Positions 3,659 to 55,059 of a stretch of DNA of 64,000 nt are shown piece by piece. Numbering within the stretch: position 1 is the stretch's first letter; each line of letters starts with the position of its first letter. Origin of the DNA: Neisseria sp. 83E34. GTDB lineage: Bacteria; Pseudomonadota; Gammaproteobacteria; Burkholderiales; Neisseriaceae. A program made the translations under genes and the position numbers. The stretch is from assembly GCF_001308015.1 (NCBI RefSeq), contig NZ_LGYH01000003.1:62001-126000 (forward strand), given 5' to 3'. Under the pieces are notes generated by a model, which saw only the letters and a program-made list of their open reading frames with translations, had not been told where the DNA came from and ran no database searches.

Positions 3659-3715
3659 ATGGCAGCAACTTCAAGCAGGATTGATGCTCTGCACCCCACT
3701 CCCATGCCTGTCTGA
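3659..3715 (+). pseudogene. 18-residue open frame with strong ribosome site, likely a truncated gene start
   Basis: GGAGGAGG at 3646-3653 is followed 5 nt later by ATG and the frame MAATSSRIDALHPTPMPV, ending at a TGA inside a DUS. The very good ribosome site and the abrupt end exactly where the duplicated segment begins suggest the 5' stub of a gene whose body was replaced by recombination at the DUS. A genuine short peptide cannot be excluded. The parent gene is not recognisable from 15 residues. Confidence 0.4.
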
Positions 3716-3734
3716 AACTTTTTCAGACAGGCAT
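3704..3734. terminator. Inverted DUS pair at the duplication junction
   Basis: ATGCCTGTCTGAA and its reverse complement, with a spacer differing by one base from the copy at 1635-1665. Sequence to its right repeats 1635 onward; sequence to its left is unrelated. It is therefore the left edge of the second repeat unit. Confidence 0.75.
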
Positions 3735-3785
3735 TGTCGATTGATTTAATAAATAACAGATGCATAATTGATATGGAGAGAGAAT

Positions 3786-4694
3786 ATGCCTATTAAACCG
3801 GCAAAATTCTTGTTGGCCATTCTCATTGCGGGAGCAACCGTGTTTACGTTTGCCGCCTGTTACCATTACATTCAAAAACACCTGCATCCCAAACCTGATC
3901 GGGGGCCGGTTTATTTCAGGCCGGGGCAATTGATTCCGGCGGGTTATCCGAGAGACGAATATAAGCATCCTTACCAGATAGGCAATCTAGGCGGCAAGCC
4001 GGTAAAGCTGTCGGCTTTTGTTGCCGAGCTGTTGGAATACGATGATTCTCCCGGTTGGGATCCGGAGAAGAACAGAAACTACAAACCACCGATACGCACC
4101 TATCAATCGATAATCGAATCATTCGGTTTCGACATGCGTTATACAGACGGGTTGTTACGGCATTTGCGCAAAGATTCGGATAGGGCATACGAACGCGAAC
4201 ACAATATTCCGGGTAATGCTTGGGTAAGTGTTACTGTGTTGAGCGGTTCCCGTTACCCTGTTATGCCGGCAACAGTATTAAACAGATATGCCGATCCGGA
4301 TACTTTTCCTCCCCGCGTCATGCTGCCGGAGAAGCAGTTTGGCTTAGAAGTGTATGTTTTACCAAAAGATGTGGATCGCGAGCAAATTGCCTTGAGAAGC
4401 CACAATGACAGCGATATTTTTGTAGCGAGGAATCAAGCAGGAAATATTACTTCTTATATCGTATGCTCGAATAGAAAAGTGCCGCAGCCTCCGTGCAAGC
4501 ATGATATTGTGATGCTGGAAGATATGAAAGTGGGGCTTTCCTTAAGCTATGATCGCCAAGTTTTGAAAGACTGGAAAAAAATCGAATCGGAAGCGGAAAA
4601 AGCCGTGCGCAGTTTTATTACCGAGCCGGAGGCTATTGATACGGAAACTGAGCAAGGAAACAGATTAAAAATCCATTTGAAGATGCCTGTCTGA
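3786..4694 (+). CDS. Unrecognised membrane-anchored or lipoprotein, copy 2 of a duplicated pair
   Basis: 302 residues, same length and start context as the gene at 1717, offset 2069 bases. The 5' two thirds are identical at DNA level. Differences begin near codon 200 and cluster in the last third, where several change the protein: Phe to Ser, Gly to Arg, Ser to Pro, Arg to Gln, two Asn to Asp and Glu to Gly between about residues 228 and 258. The stop codon again lies in a DUS. Function is unrecognised. The pattern fits duplication followed by gene conversion of the 5' part or diversification of the 3' part. Confidence 0.8.
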   Translation: MPIKPAKFLLAILIAGATVFTFAACYHYIQKHLHPKPDRGPVYFRPGQLIPAGYPRDEYKHPYQIGNLGGKPVKLSAFVAELLEYDDSPGWDPEKNRNYKPPIRTYQSIIESFGFDMRYTDGLLRHLRKDSDRAYEREHNIPGNAWVSVTVLSGSRYPVMPATVLNRYADPDTFPPRVMLPEKQFGLEVYVLPKDVDREQIALRSHNDSDIFVARNQAGNITSYIVCSNRKVPQPPCKHDIVMLEDMKVGLSLSYDRQVLKDWKKIESEAEKAVRSFITEPEAIDTETEQGNRLKIHLKMPV

Positions 4695-40483: not shown

Positions 40484-41071
40484 ATGCATGTAAACGATTT
40501 GTATCCGGTTGTCCAAAATGTGTTGGGCGACAAAGCAAGCAAGGTCATTCTCGCATTGGGCGAGATTACCGTTGAATGCCTGCCTGAAAATTATCTGAAC
40601 GTAATGACTACGTTGCGCGACCATGCCGATCTGCATTTTGAATCGTTGGTGGATTTGTGCGGCGTGGATTACAGCACTTACAAAAACGAACCGTGGGAAG
40701 GCAAGCGCTTTGCCGTGGTCAGCCAACTGGTTTCCGTAAAAAACAACCAGCGCATCCGTGTGCGCGTATGGGCGGCCGAGGACGATTTCCCTGTGGTCGA
40801 TTCCGTGGTGGACATTTACAACAGCGCCGATTGGTACGAGCGTGAAGCATTCGACCTGTTCGGTATCCTGTTCAACAACCACCCCGATTTGCGCCGTATC
40901 CTCACGGATTACGGTTTTGTCGGCCATCCGTTCCGCAAAGATTTCCCGATTTCCGGCTATGTTGAAATGCGTTACGACGAAGCCGAGAAACGCGTGATTT
41001 ACCAACCTGTAACCATCGAGCCGCGCGAAATTACCCCGCGCATCGTCCGCGAGGAGAACTACGGTGGCTAA
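40484..41071 (+). CDS. nuoC: NuoC, complex I 30-kDa subunit
   Basis: 195 residues with the 30-kDa subunit signature in [15 protein letters not shown] and [23 protein letters not shown]. It belongs to the peripheral arm, bound to NuoD. AGGAGAA lies upstream of ATG. Separate from nuoD, unlike the fused NuoCD of E. coli. Confidence 0.96.
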
Positions 41072-42320
41072 TAAATTAAGAAACTACACCATCAACTTCG
41101 GCCCGCAGCACCCTGCCGCGCACGGCGTATTGCGTATGATTCTGGAGCTGGAAGGCGAAACCATCGTTCGCGCCGACCCGCATATCGGCCTACTTCACCG
41201 CGGTACTGAGAAACTGGCCGAAACCCGTACCTATCTGCAAGCCCTGCCTTATATGGACCGCTTGGACTACGTTTCCATGATGGTCAACGAACAAGCCTAT
41301 TGTTTGGCGGTAGAAAAACTGACCGGTGTCGAAGTACCGATCCGCGCCCAATACATCCGCGTGATGTTTGCCGAAGTTACCCGCATTCTGAACCATCTGA
41401 TGGGTATCGGTTCGCACGCGCTCGATATCGGCGCGATGACCGTATTCCTGTATGCCTTCCGCGAACGTGAAGAGCTGATGGACTTATACGAAGCCGTATC
41501 CGGTGCGCGTATGCACGCGGCCTACTTCCGTCCGGGCGGCGTGTACCGCGATTTGCCCGATTTCATGCCTAAGTATGAATCCAGCAAATTCCGCAATGCC
41601 AAAGTGTTGAAAAAGCTGAACGAATCGCGCGAAGGCACGATGCTCGACTTTATCGAAGCCTTTACCGAACGCTTCCCCTCTTGCGTGGATGAATACGAAA
41701 GCCTGCTTACCGACAACCGTATTTGGAAGCAGCGTACCGTCGGCATCGGCGTGGTTTCTCCCGAGCGCGCGCTGCAAAAAGGCTTTACCGGCGTGATGCT
41801 TCGCGGTTCAGGCGTGGAGTGGGATATCCGCAAAAAAGCACCGTACGATGCCTATGCCAATGTTGATTTCGACATTCCCGTCGGCGTAAACGGCGACTGT
41901 TACGATCGTTACCTCTGCCGTATCAACGAAATGCGCGAATCCAACCGCATCATCAAGCAATGCGTGCAATGGCTCAAAGCCAACCCCGGCCCCGTGATTG
42001 TCGAAAACCACAAAGTCGCGCCGCCCAAACGCACTGAAATGAAAATAGGCATGGAAGACTTGATCCACCATTTCAAACTGTTTACCGAAGGCATGCACGT
42101 GCCCGAAGGTGAAACCTATACTGCCGTCGAGCACCCCAAAGGCGAGTTCGGCATTTACATGATTTCAGACGGCGCCAACAAACCCTACCGCCTGAAAATC
42201 CGCGCACCCGGCTTCGCCCATCTGCAAGGCATGGACGAAATGGCACGCGGCCACATGTTGGCCGACGTGGTGGCCATCATCGGTACGCAAGACATCGTAT
42301 TCGGGGAGGTAGACCGATAA
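41064..42320 (+). CDS. nuoD: NuoD, complex I 49-kDa subunit
   Basis: 418 residues. Contains [13 protein letters not shown] and [10 protein letters not shown], the 49-kDa subunit signature lining the quinone cavity, and the C-terminal [29 protein letters not shown]. It uses a GTG start at 41064 with GAGGAG 7 nt upstream, overlapping the nuoC stop by 8 bases. Confidence 0.96.
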
Positions 42321-42793
42321 TGTTATCCGCAGAATCTTTAAAACAAATCGACGTCGAGCTGGCGAAATATCCGGCCGACCAACGCCGTTCCGCCATCATG
42401 GGTGCATTGCGTATCGCCCAAGTAGAAAAACGCTGGCTGACGCCCGAACTCATTGAATTCGTTGCCAATTATGTCGGCATCGCACCGGCTGCCGCCTACG
42501 AAGTGGCCACTTTCTACAATATGTACGACCTGCATCCGGTAGGCAAATACAAGCTGACCGTCTGCACCAACCTGCCTTGCGCCCTGCGCGGCGGAGTGAA
42601 TGCCGCCGAATACCTGAAACAGAAACTCGGCATCGGCTTTGGCGAAACCACTTCAGACGGCCTCTATACCTTAATGGAAGGCGAGTGCATGGGCGCATGC
42701 GGCGATGCCCCCGTGATGCTGGTGAACAACCACAAAATGTGCAGCTTTATGACCGAAGAAGCGATTGAGCAAAAATTGGCGGAATTGCAGTAA
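42320..42793 (+). CDS. nuoE: NuoE, complex I 24-kDa subunit
   Basis: 157 residues. Ligands of the [2Fe-2S] cluster N1a are in CTNLPCALRGG and GECMGACGDAP. Its ATG shares one base with the nuoD stop. It works with NuoF in the NADH-oxidising module. Unlike most operons, nuoF does not follow at once: about 1.57 kb with three unrelated genes intervenes. Confidence 0.95.
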   Translation: MLSAESLKQIDVELAKYPADQRRSAIMGALRIAQVEKRWLTPELIEFVANYVGIAPAAAYEVATFYNMYDLHPVGKYKLTVCTNLPCALRGGVNAAEYLKQKLGIGFGETTSDGLYTLMEGECMGACGDAPVMLVNNHKMCSFMTEEAIEQKLAELQ

Positions 42794-42858
42794 GGGCTGC
42801 TGTAAATCGGGTTTTTAAAATTAATAATTAATCTTTGCCGTGAATCAAGGAGTTAAAA

Positions 42859-43089
42859 ATGAGTCAGTATTGTGCTCAATGCCAAGAAGAAATTGAAGAT
42901 GATGAATTTGATTTTGAGCAAAATATTTGTAATGACTGTATGGATATAAATGAAGAATATCCTCCCATACCACAAGGAACGAAATGTGATAATTGTGGTA
43001 GCCCAACTGCAGAATATTATGGTGGAGATGATGTCCTGTGTGAGACATGTCATGACGATTATGTTGATGGTTATCGTGAGCGAGATTAG
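42859..43089 (+). CDS. Small zinc-ribbon-like protein between nuoE and nuoF
   Basis: 76 residues, very acidic, with four CxxC pairs (CAQC, CNDC, CDNC, CETC), which probably bind two zinc ions. AAGGAG lies 7 nt upstream of ATG 42859. Function is unknown. Base composition is AT-richer than the nuo genes around it, in line with insertion. Confidence 0.75.
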   Translation: MSQYCAQCQEEIEDDEFDFEQNICNDCMDINEEYPPIPQGTKCDNCGSPTAEYYGGDDVLCETCHDDYVDGYRERD

Positions 43090-43110
43090 CAAGAGTAAGC
43101 CGTAGTAAAC

Positions 43111-43139
43111 ATAGGTTGGGTCTTAATCCAATAAAATCG
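43111..43139. repeat. GGTTGGGTC-type short repeat
   Basis: TAGGTTGGGTCTTAATCCAATAAAATCG; an almost identical word occurs at 43674-43701. It is a weak palindrome around TTGGGTC. Such words recur in intergenic DNA of AG-DUS Neisseria species. Confidence 0.45.
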
Positions 43140-43222
43140 TTACAGCCCGTCTTAAACGTTTGTAAATCCAAACGGCAAAATTTCAGTGGATAGCTTGGCT
43201 TGAAAACCCAACAAAGAATGAA

Positions 43223-43246
43223 AGGCTACCTGAAAGGCCGTCTGAA
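43223..43246 (+). repeat. Adjacent foreign DUS: eikenella-type and AG-type
   Basis: AGGCTACCTGAA at 43223-43234 directly followed by AGGCCGTCTGAA at 43235-43246. Neither is the dialect of the rest of the window. Confidence 0.85.
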
Positions 43247-43266
43247 AACAAAGAAAGGAAGCAAAA

Positions 43267-43662
43267 ATGGAAGCCAAATGTTTGTGTGGTGCCGTATCCA
43301 TAAAAGTTGAAGCTGACCGCAAGCTGCACGCCTGCCATTGCGGCAAATGCCGTACTTGGGGTAGTGGTGCAAGTTTTACCTTAACGGCCAAAAAACCTGA
43401 AATCAGTGGCAGCGAACATATCGGCCGCTACCGCTCGTCCGAATGGGCGGAACGCTGCTTCTGTAATCAATGCGGTACGCATTTGTTCGTGCAGGTGGGC
43501 GACGATTATTACATCAATGCGGGATTATTTGCCGATAACGCCGGTTTTGAGTTGGAAAGCCAAATTTTTATCGACTGCAAGGCACCTTATTACGAGTTGG
43601 CTGACGATACGCCCAAACTGACCGAGCATGAGTTTTTGGCCATGATTGGCGCGGAAAAATAA
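43267..43662 (+). CDS. GFA-family (glutathione-dependent formaldehyde-activating-like) protein
   Basis: 131 residues. The zinc-binding cysteines of the GFA/CENP-V fold are present: CLCGAV near the N-terminus, CHCGKCR near residue 24 and CFCNQCGTHLF near residue 60. AGAAAGGA precedes ATG. Biochemical role is uncertain; many family members are not formaldehyde enzymes. It lies between nuoE and nuoF with foreign DUS on both sides. Confidence 0.85.
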   Translation: MEAKCLCGAVSIKVEADRKLHACHCGKCRTWGSGASFTLTAKKPEISGSEHIGRYRSSEWAERCFCNQCGTHLFVQVGDDYYINAGLFADNAGFELESQIFIDCKAPYYELADDTPKLTEHEFLAMIGAEK

Positions 43663-43735
43663 CGAGCAGTTGTAGGTTGGGTCTTGACCCAACAAAATCG
43701 TTAAAAGCCGTCTGAAAACACCAAAAGGAAAACGC

Positions 43736-44053
43736 ATGAGCCACCAAATTATCCGCAGTGCCGAATTTACCGCCGAACGCGCATGGAGTGCTTTGGATAT
43801 TGCCAATATGAACGGCACAACCGTGCGCCTGCATTGGACCGACCGACCCTACAAATGGCACATTAACGACGGCGAAGAAGTGTTTGCCGTGATGAGCGGC
43901 ACGGTGGATATGCACTACCGCGAACACGGGCAGGAGCAAGTGGTGTGCTTGCAGGCCGGCGATATTTTCTTTGCCGGCATTGGCACGGAGCACGTTGCCC
44001 ACCCGCAAGGAGAGGCACGGATTTTAGTGGTGGAAAAAGAGGGTAGTGTATAA
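43736..44053 (+). CDS. Small cupin-domain protein
   Basis: 105 residues, one cupin barrel: WHINDGEEVFAVMSGTVDMHY (motif 1) and GDIFFAGIGTEHVAHP (motif 2). Histidine and glutamate ligands for a metal are present in motif 1 and histidines in motif 2. AAAAGGA precedes ATG. Substrate is unknown. It is a third insert gene between nuoE and nuoF. Confidence 0.85.
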   Translation: MSHQIIRSAEFTAERAWSALDIANMNGTTVRLHWTDRPYKWHINDGEEVFAVMSGTVDMHYREHGQEQVVCLQAGDIFFAGIGTEHVAHPQGEARILVVEKEGSV

Positions 44054-44075
44054 GCAGGCCGTCTGAAAAAACAGG

Positions 44076-44155
44076 TTGTAGGTCGGATTCTTGAGTCCGA
44101 CATCAACAAGGTTTTAACTCGGACAAACTGTCGGATTCAAGAATCCGACCTACAA
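44076..44155. repeat. 80-base palindromic element (GTAGGTCGGATTC type)
   Basis: Arms of 25 bases, TTGTAGGTCGGATTCTTGAG and its complement, with one mismatch, around a 30-base centre. It resembles REP-like palindromes common between genes in Neisseria. It could form a strong hairpin after the cupin gene. Confidence 0.7.
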
Positions 44156-44215
44156 AACGTTAAAGGTGTTCGAATCCAATACGGCGAAGCATTTTAAACA
44201 CTTTAAAAAACGCTT

Positions 44216-44271
44216 TTCAGACGGCCTCAAGGCTACCTGAAAGGCCGTCTGAAAAATTTTTCAGACAGGCA
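44216..44271. repeat. Four DUS of three dialects within 56 bases
   Basis: In order: TTCAGACGGCCT (AG-DUS, reverse), AGGCTACCTGAA (eikenella type), AGGCCGTCTGAA (AG-DUS), TTCAGACAGGCA (local type, reverse). The AG pair forms a hairpin enclosing the eikenella type. Confidence 0.9.
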
Positions 44272-44361
44272 TAACAAAACAAACAATAAGTACATACGCA
44301 CAACAGCAGTTGGGCGGTAAAGTAAAAAGATTGAAGAAGTTAACCGATTAGGGCTAAGCAA

Positions 44362-45657
44362 ATGGCTATTTTCCAATCAGGCGTGATTTTTGAGAACGTC
44401 GATACCCATAATCCGAGCTGCTGGAAGCTGGACGAATACGTTAAGCGCGGCGGTTATCAGGCTTTGCGCAAAATCCTGACTGAAAACATGTCGCAAGACG
44501 ATGTGATTTCAGAAGTAAAAACTTCGGGTTTGCGCGGCCGTGGCGGTGCGGGCTTTCCCACCGGTTTGAAATGGAGCTTTATGCCCCGTTCTTTCCCTGG
44601 TGCGAAATACGTTGTCTGCAACACCGACGAAGGCGAACCCGGCACATTCAAAGACCGCGACATTATCAACTTCAACCCGCATTCTTTGATTGAGGGCATG
44701 ATTATTGCCGGTTACGCGATGGGTGCCGAAGCGGGTTACAACTATATCCACGGCGAAATCTTCGAAGGTTATCAACGCTTTGAAGCCGCTTTGCAGGAAG
44801 CACGCGATGCGGGCTTTTTAGGCAAAAACATCATGGGCACGGACTTTTCATTCGAGCTGTTTGCCCATCATGGTTACGGCGCATATATCTGCGGCGAAGA
44901 AACCGCCTTGCTGGAATCGCTGGAAGGCAAAAAAGGCCAACCGCGCTTCAAACCGCCTTTCCCCGCTTCATACGGCCTGTACGGAAAACCCACCACCATC
45001 AACAACACCGAAACCTTTGCTTCGGTGCCGTTCATTATCCGTGACGGCGGACAGACTTTTGCCGACAAAGGCATCGAAAACGCAGGCGGCACCAAGCTGT
45101 TTTCTATTTCCGGCCACGTTGAACGCCCCGGCAACTACGAAGTGCCGTTAGGCACGCCGTTTGCCAAACTGCTGGAAATGGCCGGCGGCATGAAAGACGG
45201 CAAAAAACTCAAAGCCGTGATTCCCGGCGGTTCGTCTGCGCCCGTACTGCCCGGCGAAGTAATGATGACCTTGAACATGGACTACGATTCCATCGCCAAA
45301 GCAGGCTCCATGCTCGGTTCGGGCGCGGTGATTGTGATGGACGAAGACGTATGTATGGTGAAAGCGCTGGAGCGTTTGAGCTATTTCTACTACGAAGAAT
45401 CATGCGGCCAATGTACCCCGTGCCGCGAAGGTACCGGCTGGCTGTACCGTGTAGTCCACCGCATTGCCGAAGGAAAAGGCCGCCCCGAAGATTTGGATTT
45501 GCTGGATTCGGTCGGCAACAATATGGCAGGCCGCACCATTTGCGCCTTGGCCGATGCCGCCGTGTTCCCCGTGCGCAGCTTCACCAAGCACTTCCGCCAT
45601 GAGTTTGAACACTATATCGAGCATGGCAAACCGGCTAAAGAGCATAAGTGGTGTTAG
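44362..45657 (+). CDS. nuoF: NuoF, complex I 51-kDa subunit (NADH and FMN site)
   Basis: 431 residues. [18 protein letters not shown] is the NADH site; [14 protein letters not shown] the FMN region; [15 protein letters not shown] supplies ligands of cluster N3, with a further cysteine near [10 protein letters not shown]. It oxidises NADH and passes electrons to NuoG through FMN. Confidence 0.96.
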
Positions 45658-45763
45658 TAAAAGCCGGCTGGTTGGAAAGTAGTGCCTTTTCAATAATAAG
45701 GTTGGTTTTTTTCATTGATTGATTCAGTTTGGTTTTTATAAAACTTCAATGTGAAAATGTTGG

Positions 45764-45777
45764 TTGATTATAGTCAA
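45764..45777 (+). promoter_or_regulatory. Candidate FNR site upstream of the DUF411 gene
   Basis: TTGATTATAGTCAA matches the FNR consensus at 9 of 10 positions. TCTAAT at 45797-45802 is a plausible -10, which puts the site near -39. The DUF411 gene would then have its own oxygen-responsive promoter within the nuo cluster. Confidence 0.4.
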
Positions 45778-45835
45778 AATATTTCTCTCGAATTGGTCTA
45801 ATTGGCTGCTTAAATTTTAATTTGAGGATGAGATT

Positions 45836-46366
45836 GTGAAAAAAATAAAATTCTTTTCTAAGCAAACAGCTTGGGTTTTTACTGTATCTGTTGCTGTTTC
45901 AGCAGTGGTATTTGGCTTGGTGTCCGAGTCTAATCATCGGCAACAAATGGATTACGCAGATTTGGCGGATAAGGATTTGCTTTCACATCAACATAAAGTG
46001 GAGGTGTGGAAGGATCCCAATTGCGGTTGTTGTACTGAATGGGTTAAGCATATGGAGGATAACGGCTTCCAAGTGGTTGTACACAATACTGGTAATCGTG
46101 AAGCGAGAGATGAGTTAGGGATGCCGCAAAAATATGGGGCGTGCCATACAGCCAAAGTAGATGGTTATGTTATAGAAGGACATACACCTGCAACGGATAT
46201 TCGCCGTTTGCTCAAAGAAAAACCAGAGGCTTTGGGTTTGGCAACACCTGGTATGCCGTTGGGTTCTCCTGGTATGGATGGAGAAATGTATCAAAATCGG
46301 AAGCATCCTTATGATGTGTTATTGGTCGCTAAAAACGGGAGTAATCAAATTTATCAATCTTACTAA
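45836..46366 (+). CDS. DUF411 family protein, membrane-anchored, putative metal binding
   Basis: 176 residues. One N-terminal hydrophobic segment (about 12-30) is followed by a periplasmic domain starting VEVWKDPNCGCCTEWVKHME, the DUF411 hallmark CxCC, and ending with a conserved GMPLGSPGM. DUF411 proteins are often encoded near copper resistance genes; a copper role here is a guess. It uses a GTG start with GAGG 8 nt upstream. It lies between nuoF and nuoG. Confidence 0.85.
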   Translation: MKKIKFFSKQTAWVFTVSVAVSAVVFGLVSESNHRQQMDYADLADKDLLSHQHKVEVWKDPNCGCCTEWVKHMEDNGFQVVVHNTGNREARDELGMPQKYGACHTAKVDGYVIEGHTPATDIRRLLKEKPEALGLATPGMPLGSPGMDGEMYQNRKHPYDVLLVAKNGSNQIYQSY

Positions 46367-46688
46367 TATGTAAGAGAAGGTTGGGTTATTAATTCCAGTA
46401 AGAGTAGGTTGGGTTGTAAAACCCAACACAAATATCAGGCCGTCTGAAACATTGGGTTTAAAACCCAATCTACTTACATGATTGATTCCCTTTCAATCAG
46501 GCAGAATTTGCCTTGAAGCTTTAAAAAACTAATTAATGAAGTCGGAATTGAAAAACAGGCTACCTGAAACACAGTCAAAAATAAAATGCCTGTCTGAAAA
46601 CTTGGTAAACGTATACAACAAATAAAAAAACAGTATTTCAGACGGCCTTATTTAAATTTTTAATAAAACCGTAACTAGGAAACACACC
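46367..46688. other. Intergenic stretch with mixed DUS dialects
   Basis: Contains a small palindrome GTTGGGTTGTAAAACCCAAC (46408-46427), AG-DUS at 46437-46448, eikenella-type DUS at 46557-46568, local-type DUS at 46587-46598 and reverse AG-DUS at 46637-46648. No gene is seen. nuoG starts at 46689. Confidence 0.75.
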
Positions 46689-48947
46689 ATGTTACAAATT
46701 GAAATCGACGGTAAACAGATTGCAGTCAAGCAGGGTGCGACCGTGATGGAAGCGGCGCACGAGCTGGGCACTTATATCCCGCATTTCTGCTACCACAAAA
46801 AATTGTCTATTGCTGCCAACTGCCGCATGTGCTTGGTAGAGGTGGAGAAAGCGCCCAAACCGCTGCCTGCCTGCGCTACGCCGGTAACGGACGGTATGGT
46901 AGTGCACACAAATTCTGCAAAGGCGAAGCAAGCGCAAGAAGGGGTGATGGAGTTTCTGCTCATCAACCACCCCTTGGATTGCCCGATTTGCGACCAAGGC
47001 GGTGAGTGCCAGCTTCAGGATTTGGCCGTGGGTTACGGCAAATCGTCCAGCCGCTATAAAGAAGAGAAGCGTTCGGTTGTCGGCAAAGATATGGGGCCGT
47101 TGGTGTCTGCGGAAGAAATGAGCCGCTGTATTCACTGTACCCGTTGCGTGCGTTTTACCGAAGAAATCGCCGGTATGCAGGAAATTGCCATGGCAAACCG
47201 CGGCGAGTTTTCCGAAATCATGCCGTTTATCGGCAAAGCGGTGGAAACCGAACTGTCCGGTAACGTGATTGATTTGTGTCCGGTGGGTGCATTAACCAGC
47301 AAACCGTTCCGCTACGATGCCCGTTCTTGGGAATTGAGCCGCCGTAAAACCATTTCTGCGCATGATGCTTTGGGCAGCAATTTAATCGTGCAAACCAAAG
47401 ACCATACCGTGCGCCGTGTGTTGCCGTTGGAAAACGAAGCCGTTAACGAATGCTGGATTTCCGACCGCGACCGTTTCGCTTATGAAGGCCTGTATCACGA
47501 AAGCCGTCTGAAAACGCCGAAAATCAAGCATGGCGGCGAATGGCATGAAGTGGATTGGCAAACTGCGCTGGAATATGTGCGCAAAACTTTAGACTGTATC
47601 GCCAAAGAAGACGGCAAAGAGCAAATCGGTATTTGGGCGAACCCAATGAATACCGTAGAAGAGCTGTATCTGGCGAAAAAACTGGCCAACGGCTTGGGCA
47701 TCAAACATTTCGATACCCGCCTGCAACAGCAAGACAACCGTCTTTCAGGTAGCCTGAAAGGCGCGCAATGGCTGGGCCAAGGCATTGAAGATTTAGGTAA
47801 TAGTGATGCTGTGCTGGTCGTTGGTGCCAACCTGCGTAAAGAACAGCCGCTGTTAACCGCCCGTTTGCGCCGTGCCGCCAAGTCTTATATGGCGTTGAGC
47901 ATCATGGCGAGCAGCAAAGAAGAATTGCACATGCCGTTGCTGTCGCAAGAAGCGGTACACCCGAACGAATGGGCAGGCCGTCTGAAAAATATGGCGCAAG
48001 ACCTTGAAAACGCTGTTTCAGGTAGCCTGAAAAATGCTGAGAAAGCGGCAATTGTGTTGGGTGCCGAAGTGCAAAACCATCCTGATTATGCGGCGATTTA
48101 TTCTGCCGCTCAGGAATTGGCGGCGGCTACCGGAGCGGTGCTGGGCATCTTGCCACAGGCTGCCAATAGCGTGGGCGCGGATATCTTGGGCGTGAACAGC
48201 GGCAACAGCATTCAAGAAATGTTGGCGCAACCGAAAAAGGCCGTATTGTTGTTGAATGTGGAGCCTGAAATCGATGTAGCAAACGGCGGTAAAGCAGTGG
48301 CTGCATTGAAGCAAGCTCAAAGCGTAATGGCGTTTACTCCGTTTGAAAGCGAAACCCTGCGTGAAGTGTGCGATGTGATGTTGCCGATTGCGCCGTTTAC
48401 CGAAACTTCAGGTAGCCTCATCAGCATGGAAGGCCGTCTGCAATCGTTCCACGGTGTGGTGAAAGGCTTTGCCGATTCACGCCCGTTGTGGAAAGTGCTG
48501 CGTGTGTTGGGCAATGTGTTCGAGCTGGAAGGCTTTGAGTTTGACAGCAGCGAGCAAGTTTTGAAAGAGGCGGTGAATAAAGAAAGCCTGTCTGAAAAAC
48601 TGAATAACGCTGCCGATATTCAAGTGCAGGCGAATCAGGCTGCCGGCCAATTGGTGCGTGTGGGCGGTGTCGGTATTTACCATACCGATCCGATTGTGCG
48701 CCGTTCTGCTCCGCTGCAGGCAACAAGCCATGCGCAAGTGCCGGCAGCGCGTGTGCACCCCAACACATTGGCTGCGTTGGGTTTGCAAGATGGTGCAACC
48801 GTGCAAGCAGGGCAGGGCGCGGAGCGTATCAACGTAACAGTTGTTGCCGATAAAGGCCTGTCTGAAAATGTGGTGTATCTGCCGCTGCATTCTGAAAATG
48901 CCGCGTTGGGTGCGTTGATGAACACGATTGAATTGGCGGGAGCTTAA
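46689..48947 (+). CDS. nuoG: NuoG, complex I 75-kDa iron-sulfur subunit
   Basis: 752 residues. N-terminal [2Fe-2S] domain (CRMCLVEVE...CATPV), [26 protein letters not shown] and [17 protein letters not shown] for the [4Fe-4S] clusters, then a molybdopterin-oxidoreductase-like body. Several foreign DUS lie inside the coding sequence (47501, 47744, 47975, 48017, 48407), in places where they encode short surface-like stretches such as SGSLK; local-type cores occur near 48588 and 48857. The frame is intact. Confidence 0.96.
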
Positions 48948-49999
48948 TGATGCAAGAGTGGTTCCAATCCTTATTGGGGAATGATATCGGCTTGGTTGTG
49001 TCGATTCTGGTCAAAATCGTTTTGATTTTGGCACCGCTGATTCTGACCGTGGCTTATCTGACTTACTTTGAACGCAAAGTGATCGGCTATATGCAATTGC
49101 GTGTCGGCCCCAACGTTACCGGCCCGTTTGGTTTGATCCAGCCGTTTGCCGACGTGTTGAAGCTTCTGTTTAAAGAAGTTACCCGTCCGAAATTGTCGAA
49201 CAAAGCTTTGTTTTATATCGGCCCGATGATGTCGCTGATGCCTGCGTTTGCAGCTTGGGCGGTGATTCCGTTTTCTGACGAATGGCTGCTGACCAATGTC
49301 GATGCGGGCTTGCTGTATATTTTGATGATTACCTCTTTGTCTGTATACGGTGTGATCATTGCAGGTTGGGCGTCCAACTCCAAATATTCGTTTTTGGGCG
49401 CGATGCGTTCGTCTGCACAAACTATTTCCTATGAAATTGCCATGGGCGCGGCTTTGGTATGCGTGGTTATGGTTTCGGGAAGTATGAACTTCAACGAAAT
49501 TGTGGCCAGCCAAGCCAAAGGGATTGCGGGCGGTTCGATTTTCTCTTGGAACTGGTTTGCATTGTTCCCGGTGTTTATCGTGTATCTGATTTCCGCCGTA
49601 GCCGAAACCAACCGTGCACCGTTTGACGTGGCAGAGGGTGAGTCTGAGATTGTGGCCGGTTTCCATGTGGAATATTCCGGTTTCGCCTTCGCCTTATTCT
49701 TCTTGGCCGAATACATTTTCATGATTTTGATCGGTGCGCTTACCGCCATCATGTTCTTAGGCGGTTGGCTGTCTCCGTTCCCGCAAAGCTGGGGCATTAT
49801 CGGCACGCCGAGTGCGTTTTGGATGTTCCTGAAAATGGCCTTTATTTTGTACGGCTATCTGTGGATTCGCGCCACTTTCCCGCGTTACCGCTATGACCAA
49901 ATCATGCGTTTGGGTTGGAAAGTGCTGATTCCGGTAACGTTCGTATGTATTGTGCTGCTCGGTTTGTGGATGATTTCACCCTTGTCGCTGTGGAAATAA
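48947..49999 (+). CDS. nuoH: NuoH, complex I membrane subunit
   Basis: 350 residues, eight or more helices. Contains [23 protein letters not shown], the conserved loop near the quinone site, and [23 protein letters not shown]. The ATG shares one base with the nuoG stop; a second ATG follows at once. Confidence 0.96.
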
Positions 50000-50013
50000 G
50001 GGGAGAGTGAATT

Positions 50014-50493
50014 ATGGCTAATATAGTAAAAACCTTTTTGTTGGGTGAGCTGGTAAAAGGTATGGGTGTTACGCTCAAAAACTTTTTCGCCCGCAAAGAA
50101 ACGATTATGTTCCCCGAAGAGAAAACGCCCCAATCCGTGCGTTTCCGCGGTTTGCATGCGCAACGCCGCTATCCGAACGGGGAAGAACGCTGCATTGCCT
50201 GTAAATTGTGCGAAGCAGTATGCCCGGCAATGGCAATCAACATCGAATCTGAGCAGCGTGAAGACGGCAGCCGCCGCACCACGCGCTACGATATTGATTT
50301 GACCAAATGCATTTTCTGCGGCTTCTGTGAAGAAGCCTGCCCCACCGATGCCATTGTGGAAACCCATATTTTGGAATACCACGGCGAAAAACGCGGTGAT
50401 CTGCATTACACCAAACCGATGCTGCTGGCCATTGGCGATAAATACGAAGCTGAGATTGCCAAACGCAAAGCGGCCGACGCGCCTTACCGTTAA
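50014..50493 (+). CDS. nuoI: NuoI, complex I subunit with two [4Fe-4S] clusters
   Basis: 159 residues with two ferredoxin motifs, [16 protein letters not shown] and [16 protein letters not shown] (clusters N6a and N6b). It bridges NuoG and NuoB. GGGGAGAG precedes the ATG. Confidence 0.96.
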
Positions 50494-50505
50494 AGGAGCA
50501 GAACC

Positions 50506-51165
50506 ATGACTTTTTCACTGATTATGTTCTATGTTCTGGCGGCGGTTATTCTGTTTGGTGCGGTAAAAACCGTTACCGCTAAAAACCCTGTACACGCTTC
50601 TTTATATTTGGTACTGACCTTCTGTATGTCGGCCATGATGTGGATGCTGATGCAGGCAGAGTTTCTCGGTATTACGCTGGTGGTCGTGTATGTGGGTGCC
50701 GTGATGGTGCTGTTCCTGTTCGTCGTAATGATGCTGAACATCGACATCGAAGAAATGCGTGCCGGTTTCTGGCGTAATGCGCCCGTGGCGTTTACTGTGG
50801 GTGTGTTAATGGCTGTGGTGTTAATCATGATTCTGATGGCTCCGGATACCAATTTGGCGGCATTCGGCTCTATGAAAGACATCCCTGCCGATTACAGCAA
50901 CGTACGTGACTTGGGTAGCCAAATTTATACTACTTATCTGTTACCGTTTGAATTGGCTGCAGTATTGTTGGTACTCGGTATGGTGGCTGCAATTGCTTTG
51001 GTGCACCGTAAAACGGTTAATCCGAAATACATTAATCCTGCCGATCAAGTAAAAGTAAATGCAAAAGAAGGCCGTATGCGCATGGTGAAAATGGAAGCTG
51101 TGGTGCTGCAACCTACTCAACCTGAAAACGATTCAGACGGCCAAGCAGAGGAGGGCAAAGCATGA
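50506..51165 (+). CDS. nuoJ: NuoJ, complex I membrane subunit
   Basis: 219 residues, five helices, with [19 protein letters not shown], the typical third helix of NuoJ. The C-terminal tail is soluble and contains a near AG-DUS (TTCAGACGGCCA, 51132-51143) encoding SDGQ. AAAGGAG precedes ATG; it overlaps nuoK by 4 bases (ATGA). Confidence 0.95.
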
Positions 51166-51467
51166 TTACGATTACGCATTATTTGGTGCTTGCCGCCCTA
51201 TTGTTCGGTATCAGTGCCATGGGCATCTTCATGAACCGCAAAAACGTATTGGTGCTGTTGATGTCGATAGAGCTGATGCTGCTGGCCGTGAATTTCAATT
51301 TCATCGCTTTTTCGCAATATTTAGGCGATACCGCCGGCCAGATTTTCGTGTTTTTCGTATTGACTGTGGCTGCTGCCGAATCGGCAATCGGTTTGGCGAT
51401 TATGGTTTTGGTGTTCCGTAACCGTAGTACGATTAATGTTGCAGATTTGAACAGTTTGAAGGGCTAA
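51162..51467 (+). CDS. nuoK: NuoK, complex I membrane subunit
   Basis: 101 residues, three helices, with the conserved buried glutamates in [13 protein letters not shown] and [11 protein letters not shown]. Coupled to nuoJ by an ATGA overlap. Confidence 0.96.
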
Positions 51468-51485
51468 TCGGGAGAATAAGAAAAA

Positions 51486-53504
51486 ATGAACGATATGACT
51501 TTATATCTGGCGATTGCCCTGATTCCTTTGGCCGGTTCGCTTTTGGCCGGTTTGTTCGGCAACAAAATCGGCCGTGCAGGCGCTCATTCGGTAACGATTC
51601 TCGGCGTGGCAATCTCTGCCGTACTGTCCGGCTATGTGTTGTGGGGCTTTATTGACGGCACGCGCACCAAATTTGATGAGAATGTGTACACATGGTTAAC
51701 CATGGGTGGCGTTGATTTCTCTGTCGGTTTCTTGGTAGATACCTTAACCGCCATGATGATGGTGGTGGTTACCAGCGTTTCTTTAATGGTACATATCTAT
51801 ACCATTGGGTATATGCACGATGAGAAAGTAGGCTATCAACGCTTCTTCAGCTATATCTCGCTGTTTACTTTTTCCATGCTGATGTTGGTGATGAGCAATA
51901 ACTTTGTTCAATTGTTCTTCGGCTGGGAGGCAGTGGGTTTGGTGTCTTATCTGCTGATCGGTTTTTACTTCAAGCGTGAAAGTGCTATTTTCGCCAACTT
52001 GAAAGCCTTTTTGGTCAACCGTGTCGGTGACTTCGGTTTTATCTTAGGCATCGGTTTGGTGCTGGCTTATTTCGGCGGCAGCTTGCGCTATCAAGATGTG
52101 TTTGCTTACTTGCCCAATGTGGTCGGCATGCAGATTTTCGGTTGGGATTTAATTACCGTAACTTGTTTATTGCTGTTTGTTGGTGCAATGGGTAAATCGG
52201 CACAATTTCCGCTGCATGTGTGGCTTCCTGATTCTATGGAAGGCCCTACGCCGATTTCTGCATTGATTCACGCGGCAACCATGGTAACGGCAGGTTTGTT
52301 TATGGTGTCCCGCATGTCGCCGATTTATGAGCTTTCTACTACTGCGTTAAGTGTGATTATGGTGGTAGGTGCGATCACTGCGCTGTTTATGGGCTTTTTG
52401 GGCACTATTCAAAACGATATCAAACGTGTGGTGGCTTATTCGACTTTGTCGCAATTGGGCTATATGACCGTGGCTTTGGGTGTGTCTGCTTACTCAATCG
52501 CCATGTTCCATGTGATGACCCATGCTTTCTTTAAAGCCTTGCTGTTCTTGGCAGCAGGTAGCGCGATTATCGGTATGCATCACGATCAAGATATGCGCCA
52601 TATGGGTAATTTGAAAAAATATATGCCCATTACATGGATTACAATGCTTATTGGTAATTTGTCGCTGATTGGTACTCCGCTGTTTGCCGGCTTCTATTCA
52701 AAAGATTCGATTATCGAAGCCGTACATTTCAGCAACTTGCCGGGCAGCGGTTTTGCTTACTTTGCCGTGTTGGCCAGCGTATTTGTTACCGCTTTCTACG
52801 CTTTCCGCCAATATTTCATGGTATTCCATGGCAAAGAAAAATGGCGTGAAATCCATCACGATCACCATTCAGACGGCCACGATGACGAACACCACCACGG
52901 CTTGGGCAAAAACGATAATCCGCATGAAAGCCCTTGGGTTGTCACCCTGCCTTTGGTTTTGTTGGCGATTCCCTCAGTGATGATCGGTTATGTAGCCATT
53001 GAGCCGATGCTGTATGGCGACTTCTTTAAAGATGTAATTCATGTGAATCATGAAGCGCATCCGGTTATGACTCAAATGAAAGAAGCCTTCCACGGCCCGT
53101 TGGCAATGGTTTCACATAGCCTGCATACCCCGGTTCTGTATTTGGCAATCGGCGGTGTTGTAGCGGCGTGGTTCCTGTATGTGAAAGCGCCTCATCTGCC
53201 GGCCAAGATTGCTTCTGCATTCAGCCCGATTTACAAACTGCTGGACAACAAATACTACCTTGATGTGATTTATTTCAATGTATTTGCCAAAGGCAGCCGC
53301 GCATTGGGTAACTTCTTCTGGAAAGCGATTGATACGGCCATTATTGATAATGGCTTGGTTAATGGCAGTGCGAAGTTGGTTGGCGGCATTGCTGCTCAGG
53401 TTCGTAAATTTCAGACAGGCTTTATCTACACTTATGCCGCATTTATGGTATTCGGTGTGTTGGTTCTGATTGTGACCTTCTTTTGGGGTCTGTTTGTGAA
53501 GTAA
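51486..53504 (+). CDS. nuoL: NuoL, antiporter-like proton-pumping subunit
   Basis: 672 residues, about 16 helices including the long lateral helix at the C-terminus. Contains GWEAVGLVSYLLIGF with the key glutamate, HVWLPDSMEGPTPISALIHAATMV and the lysine-bearing helices. Between helices there is a histidine- and aspartate-rich loop (about residues 457-485, EIHHDHHSDGHDDEHHHG), in which a near AG-DUS encodes SDGH. A local-type DUS core near 53413 encodes FQTGF. Confidence 0.96.
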   Translation: MNDMTLYLAIALIPLAGSLLAGLFGNKIGRAGAHSVTILGVAISAVLSGYVLWGFIDGTRTKFDENVYTWLTMGGVDFSVGFLVDTLTAMMMVVVTSVSLMVHIYTIGYMHDEKVGYQRFFSYISLFTFSMLMLVMSNNFVQLFFGWEAVGLVSYLLIGFYFKRESAIFANLKAFLVNRVGDFGFILGIGLVLAYFGGSLRYQDVFAYLPNVVGMQIFGWDLITVTCLLLFVGAMGKSAQFPLHVWLPDSMEGPTPISALIHAATMVTAGLFMVSRMSPIYELSTTALSVIMVVGAITALFMGFLGTIQNDIKRVVAYSTLSQLGYMTVALGVSAYSIAMFHVMTHAFFKALLFLAAGSAIIGMHHDQDMRHMGNLKKYMPITWITMLIGNLSLIGTPLFAGFYSKDSIIEAVHFSNLPGSGFAYFAVLASVFVTAFYAFRQYFMVFHGKEKWREIHHDHHSDGHDDEHHHGLGKNDNPHESPWVVTLPLVLLAIPSVMIGYVAIEPMLYGDFFKDVIHVNHEAHPVMTQMKEAFHGPLAMVSHSLHTPVLYLAIGGVVAAWFLYVKAPHLPAKIASAFSPIYKLLDNKYYLDVIYFNVFAKGSRALGNFFWKAIDTAIIDNGLVNGSAKLVGGIAAQVRKFQTGFIYTYAAFMVFGVLVLIVTFFWGLFVK

Positions 53505-53541
53505 TGGTACGAATTCAATTTTAGAATAACAGGTTACGAAT

Positions 53542-55059
53542 ATGTTTGATAACTTACTCAGCTTGGCAATTTGGGTGCCGATAATTGCCGGTGTGCTGGT
53601 CTTGGCGACAGGATCAGACCAGCGTGCGGGCTTGGCGCGTATTCTTGCTTTGGTAGGTTCGCTGGCAGGTTTTTTGGTAACACTCCCGCTGTTCACGCAA
53701 TTTGATCGGTTGAGCGGCGGTTACCAGTTTACCGAATTCCATAGTTGGATTCCTATCTTGAACATTAATTATGCCTTGGGTGTCGACGGCATTTCCGTTC
53801 TGTTTATTATCCTAAATGCTTTTATTACTTTGATGGTGGTATTGGCGGGTTGGGAAGTGATTCAGAAGCGCCCGGCACAGTATATGGCGGCATTCTTAAT
53901 CATGTCAGGGCTGATTAACGGTGCTTTTGCTGCGCAAGATGCCATTCTCTTTTACGTGTTCTTTGAAGGCATGTTGATCCCTCTTTACCTGATTATCGGT
54001 ATGTGGGGTGGCCCGCGTCGGGTGTATGCTTCCGTAAAGTTGTTTTTATATACTTTGCTGGGTTCGCTGCTGATGCTGGTTGCTTTGGTTTACCTGTCAT
54101 ATCAAGCGGGTGGCAGCTTCTTAATTGTAGAATTTCAAAATCTGAAGCATATTCCTTTGGGTATTCAGCAACTTTTGTTTATTGCTTTCTTCTTGTCGTT
54201 TGCAGTAAAAGTGCCGATGTGGCCGGTACATACATGGCTGCCTGATGCGCACGTTGAGGCGCCTACCGGCGGTTCTATGGTGTTGGCAGCGATTACCCTG
54301 AAAGTAGGTGCATACGGTTTCTTGCGCTTTATCCTGCCGATTCTGCCAGACGCTTCGCGTTATTTTGCACCGGTAATTATTGTGCTCAGCCTGATTGCGG
54401 TGATCTATATCGGTATGGTGGCTTTGGTGCAAACCGATATGAAAAAACTGGTGGCGTATTCATCCATTAGCCACATGGGCTTTGTAACATTAGGTATTTT
54501 TCTGTTCAGCGGCATGTTTTCCGGCGCTAATTTGGGTGAATTGAACGACTGGGGCCTGAAAGGTGCGATTGTGCAGATGATTTCCCACGGTTTTGTATCG
54601 GCTGCTATGTTTATGTGTATCGGTGTAATGTATGACCGTTTGCACAGCCGCAATATCGCCGATTACGGCGGTGTGGTAAACGTGATGCCTAAGTTTGCTG
54701 CTTTTATGATGCTCTTCGGCATGGCCAATGCCGGCCTGCCTGCTACTTCGGGCTTCGTAGGTGAGTTTATGGTAATCATGGGTGCTGTGGAAGTGAATTT
54801 CTGGGTGGGAGCGTTGGCTGCCATTACCTTGATTTACGGTGCATCTTATACCTTATGGATGTATAAACGGGTGATTTTCGGTGAAATCAAGAACCCGGAA
54901 GTCAAAGAGATGAAAGACATCAATTGCCGAGAGTTCGCTATTTTGGCGATTTTGGCAGTAGCCGTGCTGGGTATGGGTTTGTGGCCGCAACCTTTTATTG
55001 AAGTCGTACATCAAGCTGCGAATGATTTGATTGTACAAGTAGCGCAAAGTAAGATTTGA
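53542..55059 (+). CDS. nuoM: NuoM, antiporter-like proton-pumping subunit
   Basis: 505 residues, about 14 helices. NYALGVDGISVLFI, FYVFFEGMLIPLYLIIGMWGG (with the pump glutamate) and PVHTWLPDAHVEAPTGGSMVLAAITLKVG are the NuoM hallmarks. It follows nuoL after 37 bases. Confidence 0.96.
   Translation: MFDNLLSLAIWVPIIAGVLVLATGSDQRAGLARILALVGSLAGFLVTLPLFTQFDRLSGGYQFTEFHSWIPILNINYALGVDGISVLFIILNAFITLMVVLAGWEVIQKRPAQYMAAFLIMSGLINGAFAAQDAILFYVFFEGMLIPLYLIIGMWGGPRRVYASVKLFLYTLLGSLLMLVALVYLSYQAGGSFLIVEFQNLKHIPLGIQQLLFIAFFLSFAVKVPMWPVHTWLPDAHVEAPTGGSMVLAAITLKVGAYGFLRFILPILPDASRYFAPVIIVLSLIAVIYIGMVALVQTDMKKLVAYSSISHMGFVTLGIFLFSGMFSGANLGELNDWGLKGAIVQMISHGFVSAAMFMCIGVMYDRLHSRNIADYGGVVNVMPKFAAFMMLFGMANAGLPATSGFVGEFMVIMGAVEVNFWVGALAAITLIYGASYTLWMYKRVIFGEIKNPEVKEMKDINCREFAILAILAVAVLGMGLWPQPFIEVVHQAANDLIVQVAQSKI

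Follow-up and report, generated by a model that had tools for sequence, protein, structure and literature searches.

A nuo operon with DUS of two dialects in Neisseria sp. 83E34 suggests repeated exchange between dialect groups

DUS and genes of the nuo region

The window analyzed here is the whole stretch of 64,000 nucleotides from Neisseria sp. 83E34 (genome G000), in which exact 12-mers were counted on both strands. It holds 42 copies of TGCCTGTCTGAA (wad), eight of AGGCCGTCTGAA (AG) and six of AGGCTACCTGAA (eik-type). The dialect of the genome is wad (2119 TG-wadDUS, 263 AG and 12 eik), and the 14 exact foreign-type sites (AG or eik) span 42652–48418; the rest of the window has no exact AG or eik 12-mer on either strand. 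With limits of 42.6–48.5 kb, set after the sites were known, foreign and wad sites number 14 and 2 inside vs. 0 and 40 outside (Fisher p = 2e-11), and none of 100 dinucleotide shuffles matched the one-mismatch counts.

A preliminary description had placed a dense foreign-type block at 43.2–52.9 kb. Thirteen of its 14 foreign-type positions are exact; the other, 47501, reads AAGCCGTCTGAA, has one mismatch to AG-DUS and recurs as the same string in 11 of 14 compared genomes. An exact AG-DUS at 42652 in nuoE was absent from that list. Its three local-type positions comprise two exact sites, 44260 and 46587, and one near match, 48588 (AGCCTGTCTGAA, with one mismatch and a few bases off). The dense part of the block is at 42652–48418; the right end given for it falls outside, with nothing closer to a foreign DUS than TGGCCGTCTGAA (one mismatch) at 51132 and 52868, and nuoJ and nuoL, which had been counted in, both lie outside as well. 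A range up to 52.9 kb is ruled out by the trees, the identity limits and the absence of exact foreign DUS there. The features are as follows:

41000..42790, + strand: nuoD–nuoE segment, including the nuoC 3' end; recombinant by trees and identity, 98% identical to AG-dialect G027
42652..42663, − strand: AG-DUS in nuoE; old site, intact in 10 of the 13 genomes that cover it
43223..43246, + strand: 24-bp tandem of eik-type and AG-DUS that precedes the GFA gene
43267..43662, + strand: GFA family gene (glutathione-dependent formaldehyde-activating enzyme-like); cargo, nuoE–F gap
43736..44053, + strand: cupin-like gene (match below the Pfam cut-off); cargo, nuoE–F gap
44056..44067, + strand: AG-DUS after the cupin gene
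44216..44271, both strands: mixed DUS array before nuoF; AG (−) 44216, eik-type (+) 44230, AG (+) 44242, wad (−) 44260
44362..45657, + strand: nuoF; recombinant mosaic, about 99% identical to MAG G030 over its first few hundred bp
45836..46366, + strand: DUF411 protein gene; cargo, nuoF–G gap
46437..46648, both strands: mixed DUS group before nuoG; AG (+) 46437, eik-type (+) 46557, wad (+) 46587, AG (−) 46637
46689..48947, + strand: nuoG; recombinant mosaic, with 96% identity to G027 in the 5' part and, in the 3' part, 93% (G040) and 90% (G027)
47744..47755, − strand: eik-type string in nuoG; site is AG-DUS in G021, AGGCTGCCTGAA in G082, G066 and G054, eik-type in G065
47975..47986, + strand: AG-DUS in nuoG, common to G006, G027, G045, G002 and G044
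48017..48028, − strand: eik-type string in nuoG, common to G006, G045 and G002
48407..48418, − strand: eik-type match in nuoG that arises by coincidence from the codons of a conserved TSGSL motif; left out of the DUS count
48947..50493, + strand: nuoH–nuoI; weaker recombinant signal, right end of the mosaic near 50.4 kb

The AG-DUS of the block have orthologous positions that are occupied in AG genomes, and the array at 44216..44271 has full equivalents in G040 and G027 and partial ones (with one-off members) in G006, G045 and G002. The eik-type strings had been taken as import from an Eikenella-type lineage, which our comparison does not support: the match at 48407 is a coincidence, and 47744 and 48017 are AG-DUS or AGGCTGCCTGAA elsewhere (for 48017, AG in G012, G011, G021 and G028, and AGGCTGCCTGAA in five genomes of other genera as well as in G029). 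Around these sites no raised identity was found to G048, the one eik-dialect genome in the nuoG comparison (G049 gave no match): its 67–77% over 47651–48650 is within the range of other genera. On the orthologous sites and this low identity to one eik-dialect genome, we reject an Eikenella-type source.

Trees and identity across the nuo operon

We compared one genome per species: the TG-wadDUS clade of G000, G040 and G006, and the AG-DUS species G027, G045 and G002 with their relatives. The species tree is based on one 7.6-kb ribosomal stretch and on identities over window 18–38 kb. In the ribosomal operon the wad clade is 79–81% identical to the three AG-dialect genomes and both clades are supported at 100/100; among the matches listed of at least 1 kb at 18–38 kb, G000 is 93–94% identical to G040, 84–91% to G006 and 72–82% to G027, G045 and G002. 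The wad clade is likewise recovered at 100/100 by nuoM, but is rejected by the trees of nuoD–E (AU p = 5e-4), nuoF (4e-7), both halves of nuoG (4.5e-6 and 2.6e-5) and nuoH–I (2.7e-4); the nuoJ–L tree does not reject it (AU p = 0.23). We therefore take about 41.0–50.4 kb to be a recombinant mosaic, which bears out the proposal of interspecies recombination that was to be checked by nuo gene trees. Identity to G027 rises abruptly near 40.95 kb and is 90–98% over nuoD–I; in nuoD–E it is 98%, as it is between G006 and G002. The nuoA–C tree gives a borderline rejection (p = 0.046), grouping AG genome G045 with wad genome G006 (95% identical there), and exchange therefore also touched DNA outside 41.0–50.4 kb.

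The mosaic character proposed earlier holds as well, as the region is a patchwork with several partners and has wad-DUS 44260 and 46587 within it. A single import block, in contrast, does not fit: the patchwork is common to sister wad genomes, in line with repeated exchange. Wad genome G028 is 97–99% identical in nuoF and 96–98% in nuoG to the AG lineage G012/G011, vs. 84% in the ribosomal stretch, and would have acquired its nuoF–G independently from that lineage.

Our preferred reading, with a probability of roughly 0.86, is that the mosaic arose by natural transformation and homologous recombination between the TG-wadDUS clade and AG-DUS species, repeatedly and probably in both directions. 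Donor DNA would have entered through competence pili, the conserved nuo genes would have supplied the homology, and the cassettes and their DUS would have been carried along with it; AG-DUS would have flowed mainly from AG to wad genomes. Since wad-DUS 44260 is present in AG genomes G027, G045 and G002 as well, and 46587 in G045, DNA probably went both ways, and for each single piece the direction is short of proof. These shared wad-DUS, and the likeness of G045 to G006 in nuoA–C, would also fit a block native to the wad clade and acquired by AG genomes. We consider this reverse direction unlikely: the block has eight AG-DUS vs. two wad-DUS, and in the nuoD–E tree the wad trio falls among six AG-dialect genomes, with wad genome G029 elsewhere (support of the branch joining these nine genomes, 65/76).

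Another route to AG-DUS in a wad genome is vertical descent, the wad lineage stemming from an AG-dialect ancestor and retaining old sites in nuo. The old site at 42652 may be of this kind, and such descent could explain why wad genomes have 235–327 AG-DUS each (G029 only 23) vs. 27–78 wad-DUS in six related AG genomes. It predicts neither the high nuoD–I identity to G027 beside 79–81% in the ribosomal stretch, nor rejected trees beside an accepted one, nor the clustering of AG-DUS described below, and we regard it as very unlikely. Identity and trees contradict relics as the sole cause for the whole block; single old AG sites may be relics.

Cassettes, AG-DUS clusters and mixed-dialect arrays

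Across 41 genomes (across species only; nuoE–F in all but G028), the nuoE–F gap ranges from −1 to 2029 and the nuoF–G gap from 29 to 2425, with mostly different cargo. Both gaps have conserved flanking genes with differing cassettes between them. By gene content, they carry changing cassettes and resemble minimal mobile elements; none of the window's three cargo genes has a mobility family, and the flanking genes are recombinant. Selection for the cassettes (GFA, cupin, DUF411) could itself drive the exchange, with nuo as homologous handles and DUS as bystanders. The DUF411 piece was exchanged most recently, its gene DNA being 100% identical in G000, G040, G006 and AG genome G045, and the wide variation of cargo is also consistent with this idea; however, nuoD–E and nuoG are common to G027 too, a genome whose nuo stretch yielded no GFA or DUF411 gene. 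We hold such selection to be possible, at clearly less than even odds.

The nuo stretch of about 20 kb has eight AG-DUS vs. 2.2 expected from even spread, and AG-DUS exceed this expectation there in four of five wad genomes (p = 0.001–0.008; G028, p = 0.09; genome lengths partly rounded). The earlier account had noticed only isolated possible foreign-type DUS elsewhere, but the block is not unique in the genome: contig C1 alone has about six AG clusters, judged by eye, and the genome many others. The 24 merged AG sites of C1 have a median nearest neighbor of 882 bp vs. 7030 bp at random (smallest median in 10000 draws, 1068 bp). Of two other clusters compared, one is clearly and one partly like AG genomes, among the matches listed. 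Five further 20-kb stretches contain 0 AG and 86 wad sites, a zero that is by choice because four of the five were picked where no AG site was listed; of our 18 stretches, 11 were picked for their AG-DUS and four for having none listed, and AG counts from this set do not represent the genome average. AG-DUS also abound on several short contigs. These contigs could point to contamination or a chimeric assembly, which we judge extremely improbable: the same mosaic DUS occur in the independent assemblies of G040 and of single-contig G006, and the contamination estimate is 0.05.

Close DUS pairs were defined as lying within 40 bp, a limit chosen, like the split into same-strand and inverted pairs, after the first arrays had been seen. 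What is new here is that close same-strand pairs in our 19 pieces are always of mixed dialect (9/9), with none of 76 same-dialect close pairs on the same strand. Of these nine, the single 20-kb stretch L221 accounts for five, the window for three and L220 for one. Same-strand pairs are also mixed in G002 (5/5) and G008 (6/6), which were read only around wad sites (27/27 and 27/63, respectively); three of the five G002 pairs are at equivalents of L221 arrays, and many pairs are orthologous. The wad member is 3' in 17 of 18 wad-containing pairs. G006 has one wad-then-AG pair.

AG-DUS and wad-DUS lie within 60 bp of each other in 15 of 107 cases in our own pieces (expected, 5.1; the highest count in 2000 draws was 14) and in 13 of 94, orthologous, in the nuo stretches of nine relatives (1.4 expected). 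Wad-DUS are near AG-DUS in G002 (13/27, p = 8e-6) and not above chance in G008 (6/27, p = 0.16); the chance level assumes even spread and is too low because DUS gather between genes. When arrays are compared with AG relatives, their wad member has 3 of 120 letters changed vs. 339 of 1310 in the flanks, and lone wad-DUS have 10 of 96 vs. 165 of 1148 (the array alignments leave out the fifth L221 array at 13973, with broken alignments, the other G006 piece and any row shorter than 90 columns). Another mosaic region keeps its mixed arrays mostly whole in the clades of both dialects, with flanks that diverge by 10–28%. Lone AG-DUS in wad relatives have 2 of 180 letters changed vs. 239 of 2800 in the flanks, so an AG signal can persist outside an array.

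A putative ComP gene on contig C2 of G000 matches solved ComP (2M3K, E = 6.5e-30; 5HZ7, E = 4.1e-29) and groups with ComP of G040, G006 and G029, apart from that of five AG genomes. Bilingual arrays (AG or king/sim/eik-type, followed by wad within 40 bp on the same strand) might serve as passports for both ComP types, an idea drawn from sequence patterns that we consider rather doubtful. Uptake of arrays by both would make such segments lasting exchange corridors, namely the nuoF flanks and G000 C12:134–154 kb, with both signals kept in both clades; it would shed light on which genes pass from one dialect group to another and provide a simple marker for tracing gene flow among Neisseria. A search of the open-access literature with few terms found no report of tandem arrays that mix dialects and occur in two dialect clades, and none of nuo recombination was found in that literature.

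Comparison with known systems

DUS dialects are described as gene-flow barriers between Neisseriaceae. The swapped nuo DNA still has both dialects, which suggests that one and the same place has let DNA through the species barrier again and again; because the barrier was crossed repeatedly with different partners, the nuo operon is a natural test of how strict that barrier is.

The repeats and the receptor family are those of the wad, AG and eik dialects and their ComP receptors, as described in the relevant parts of PMC3630211 and PMC3868556. A close parallel is the folP region of Neisseria subflava ATCC 19243, which carries mucDUS at the locus (PMC1431543; Frye et al. 2013, PMC3630211): in both, the DUS dialect is off the species norm, with several DUS variants and possible import from another dialect group. 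The folP region involves mucDUS vs. AG-DUS, one base apart, whereas nuo involves AG vs. wad; and, going by the passages on folP, nuo differs in its trees, repeated events, both directions and cassettes. As in the definition of minimal mobile elements given in PMC3898611, citing Saunders and Snyder 2002, different whole-gene cassettes lie between conserved flanks and would be moved by homologous recombination; unlike the elements as defined there, the nuo sites are inside one respiratory operon and extend across species and dialects. Local dialect anomalies have also revealed foreign DNA in ICE detection from the distribution of DUS dialects (PMC7371117). Compared with the case outlined in that report, nuo appears to represent homologous replacement within a core operon, with three cargo genes that have no mobility family.

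Dialects of uptake sequences in and around the nuo block

TG-wadDUS (TGCCTGTCTGAA; "wad" below), one dialect of the DNA uptake sequence (DUS), occurs in 42 exact copies in the window, with eight exact copies of AG-DUS (AGGCCGTCTGAA) and six of the Eikenella-type string (AGGCTACCTGAA; "eik"). All 14 of these foreign-type strings are confined to 42652-48418: the ratio of foreign-type to wad strings is 14/2 within 42.6-48.5 kb vs. 0/40 outside (Fisher p = 2e-11), and with one mismatch allowed shuffled sequence gave a mean of 0.2 AG-like and 0.1 eik-like matches. The preliminary description of foreign-type DUS in this region is therefore sound as an observation: 13 of its 14 foreign-type positions are exact matches, 47501 being one base off and thus no exact site; its local-type site at 48588 is a near match only, displaced by a few bases, and the AG-DUS at 42652 was absent from its list. 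The whole source genome, G000 (2.42 Mb), contains 2119 wad, 263 AG and 12 eik strings, so half of its eik strings lie in the window. The window also holds a 300-bp direct repeat with identical copies (1635-1934 and 3704-4003, spacing 2069 bp) extending into two 308-aa ORFs.

The wad dialect is found in five of 46 genus genomes (G000, G006, G028, G029 and G040; 1322-2119 wad copies each), which carry 23-327 AG-DUS; wad-DUS number 27-78 in six AG-dialect genomes (G002, G011, G012, G027, G041 and G045), 63 in G008 and 0-7 in the remaining 34. Seven AG-DUS of the block (42652, 43235, 44216, 44242, 46437, 46637 and 47975) are each present in at least two AG genomes too; 44056, among orthologous sites of the compared genomes, is found in G000 only. 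Since the wad-DUS at 44260 has exact equivalents in AG genomes G027, G045 and G002, and that at 46587 in G045, the mosaic was probably exchanged in both directions.

The eik-type sites do not look like traces of an Eikenella donor. Site 48407 is a codon-level coincidence within a conserved TSGSL motif; site 48017 reads as AG in G012, G011, G021 and G028 and as AGGCTGCCTGAA in G029 and five other-genus genomes; site 47744 reads as AG in G021, AGGCTGCCTGAA in three other-genus genomes and eik-type in one (G065); and the eik-dialect genome G048 shows 67-77% identity around the nuoG sites. The strings at 48017 and 47744 look like DUS positions with varying letters, and the intergenic ones form tandem arrays with AG-DUS.

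Recombination between dialect groups

In a ribosomal operon tree (7.6 kb, 19 genomes), the wad genomes G000, G040 and G006 and the AG genomes G027, G045 and G002 form separate clades (each 100/100), with 79-81% identity between the trios. The nuo genes depart from this pattern.

Table. Identity and AU-test p for the wad clade across nuo
nuoA-C: weak rejection (0.046)
nuoD-E: G000-G027 98%, G006-G002 98%, G006-G045 96%; rejected (5e-4)
nuoF: G006, G045 and G002 97-99%; rejected (4e-7)
nuoG: 5' part, G000-G027 96%, G040 to G006/G045/G002 97-98%; 3' part, G000, G040 and G027 90-94%; rejected (4.5e-6 and 2.6e-5)
nuoH-I: G006, G045 and G002 96-98%, G000-G027 90%; rejected (2.7e-4)
nuoJ-L: G027-G002 97%, each 80-81% to G000; no rejection (0.23)
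nuoM (14 genomes): wad clade restored (100/100)

Identity of G000 to G027 rises at ~40.95 kb and drops at ~50.4 kb of the window. The nuoD-E, nuoF, nuoG and nuoH-I trees bear out the interspecies recombination proposed earlier, and there is good support for exchange across dialect groups. In G000 the start of nuoF is 99% identical to the MAG G030, which implies more than one exchange partner. In the wad genome G028, nuoF and nuoG are 96-99% identical to AG genomes G012/G011 whereas the ribosomal operon is 84% identical, an independent case. Over 50506-55059 of the window, nuoJ-L is nearly 100% identical between G000 and G040 (ribosomal operon, 94%), and nuoM of G000 is 98% identical to G006 (ribosomal operon, 86%). 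These values point to recent exchange inside the wad clade as well.

AG-DUS are clustered on G000 contig C1 (24 merged sites; median nearest neighbour 882 bp vs. 7030 bp for random). Two further clusters were compared with ten genomes. Among the matches listed of at least 1 kb, C12:134-154 kb is 79-95% identical to G027, G002 and G045, and C1:429-448 kb is 68-89% identical to G027 and G002, with short matches only to G045 among those listed; a comparison stretch, window 18-38 kb, gave 72-82% to all three among its listed matches. Exchange with AG species is clearly suggested for the C12 cluster and partly for the C1 cluster; the nuo block is therefore not the sole such region. The C1 stretch (429000-448500; 19.5 kb, 43% G+C), with 11 AG-DUS but none of the wad type and with numerous short ORFs, is an AG-dialect island. 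Short contigs C9, C10 and C11 (8.7-9.1 kb) are rich in AG-DUS, with 4-11 of these and 2-6 wad-DUS each; they may be import blocks, a plasmid or contamination.

The ComP receptor and mixed-dialect arrays

The DUS receptor gene comP of G000 lies on contig C2 (match to 2M3K, E = 6.5e-30). The ComP tree unites G000, G040, G006 and G029 in one clade (99/99), separate from five AG genomes. The receptor of G000 thus differs in type from that of these AG genomes, and cells whose receptor belongs to the wad lineage seem to have taken in DNA bearing AG-DUS. ComP of G028 lies outside this clade on a long branch; G028 shares the wad dialect yet has another receptor lineage. A passage in Frye et al. (PMC3630211) gives binding of AG-DUS in N. 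meningitidis MC58 as only 1.7-fold below that of AT-DUS and mentions unpublished evidence that wadDUS is functional in N. wadsworthii; an excerpt of another study (PMC3868556) reports poor transformation of N. meningitidis by natural DUS variants.

Neighbouring DUS at most 40 bp apart were surveyed in 19 stretches of G000 (228 wad, 107 AG, 9 eik). All 76 same-dialect pairs (66 wad, 10 AG) are inverted, vs. 9 of 15 mixed pairs on the same strand (Fisher 6e-9, under a post hoc definition, with one region dominant, genomes related and stretches chosen). In relatives' nuo and ribosomal stretches, 33/33 same-dialect pairs are inverted and 4 of 17 mixed pairs are same-strand; same-strand pairs are all mixed around the 27 wad-DUS of G002 (5/5) and around 27 of the 63 in G008 (6/6). 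The wad member lies on the 3' side in 17/18 pairs. A nested palindrome at G008 C1:1227850-1228200 has a king/sim-type DUS hairpin inside and outward flanking wad-DUS.

G000 C12:134000-153900 holds five AG-then-wad tandems at or near the ends of different genes. Four were aligned with equivalents in G040, G006, G045, G027 and G002; they are mostly retained in both dialect clades with flanks 10-28% divergent, and over 18 rows 18/432 DUS letters changed vs. 555/2970 in flanks. In AG relatives, wad members of arrays changed at 3/120 letters (flank 339/1310) and lone wad-DUS at 10/96 (flank 165/1148). Lone AG-DUS, however, are retained everywhere, with 0/252 letters changed among the AG relatives and 2/180 among the wad ones. 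We take the mixed arrays to be a genuine structural pattern. They could be read as nested terminator hairpins or as leftovers of dialect change; the boldest reading is that of a putative passport, by which one segment would be taken up through both receptor types.

Gene cassettes in the nuo gaps

Three genomes show a one-base overlap of nuoE with nuoF; elsewhere gaps reach 2.0 kb (E-F), 2.4 kb (F-G) and 3.6 kb (H-I). A mechanical search (55 aa or more; some hits surely non-genes) of eight gaps in 41 genomes gave 149 ORFs in an implied 99 clusters, 29 with at least two members. The cargo in the window comprises GFA-like, cupin-like (score under cut-off) and DUF411 genes. The DUF411 gene is 100% identical across G000, G040, G006 and the AG genome G045, and is the most recent trace of exchange. 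Recombination between dialect groups is a kind of event already known in Neisseria; worth following here are the mixed arrays and the fact that the dialect boundary was crossed repeatedly at a single core operon. The cassettes in the nuo gaps match the idea of the minimal mobile element, as outlined in a part of PMC3898611.
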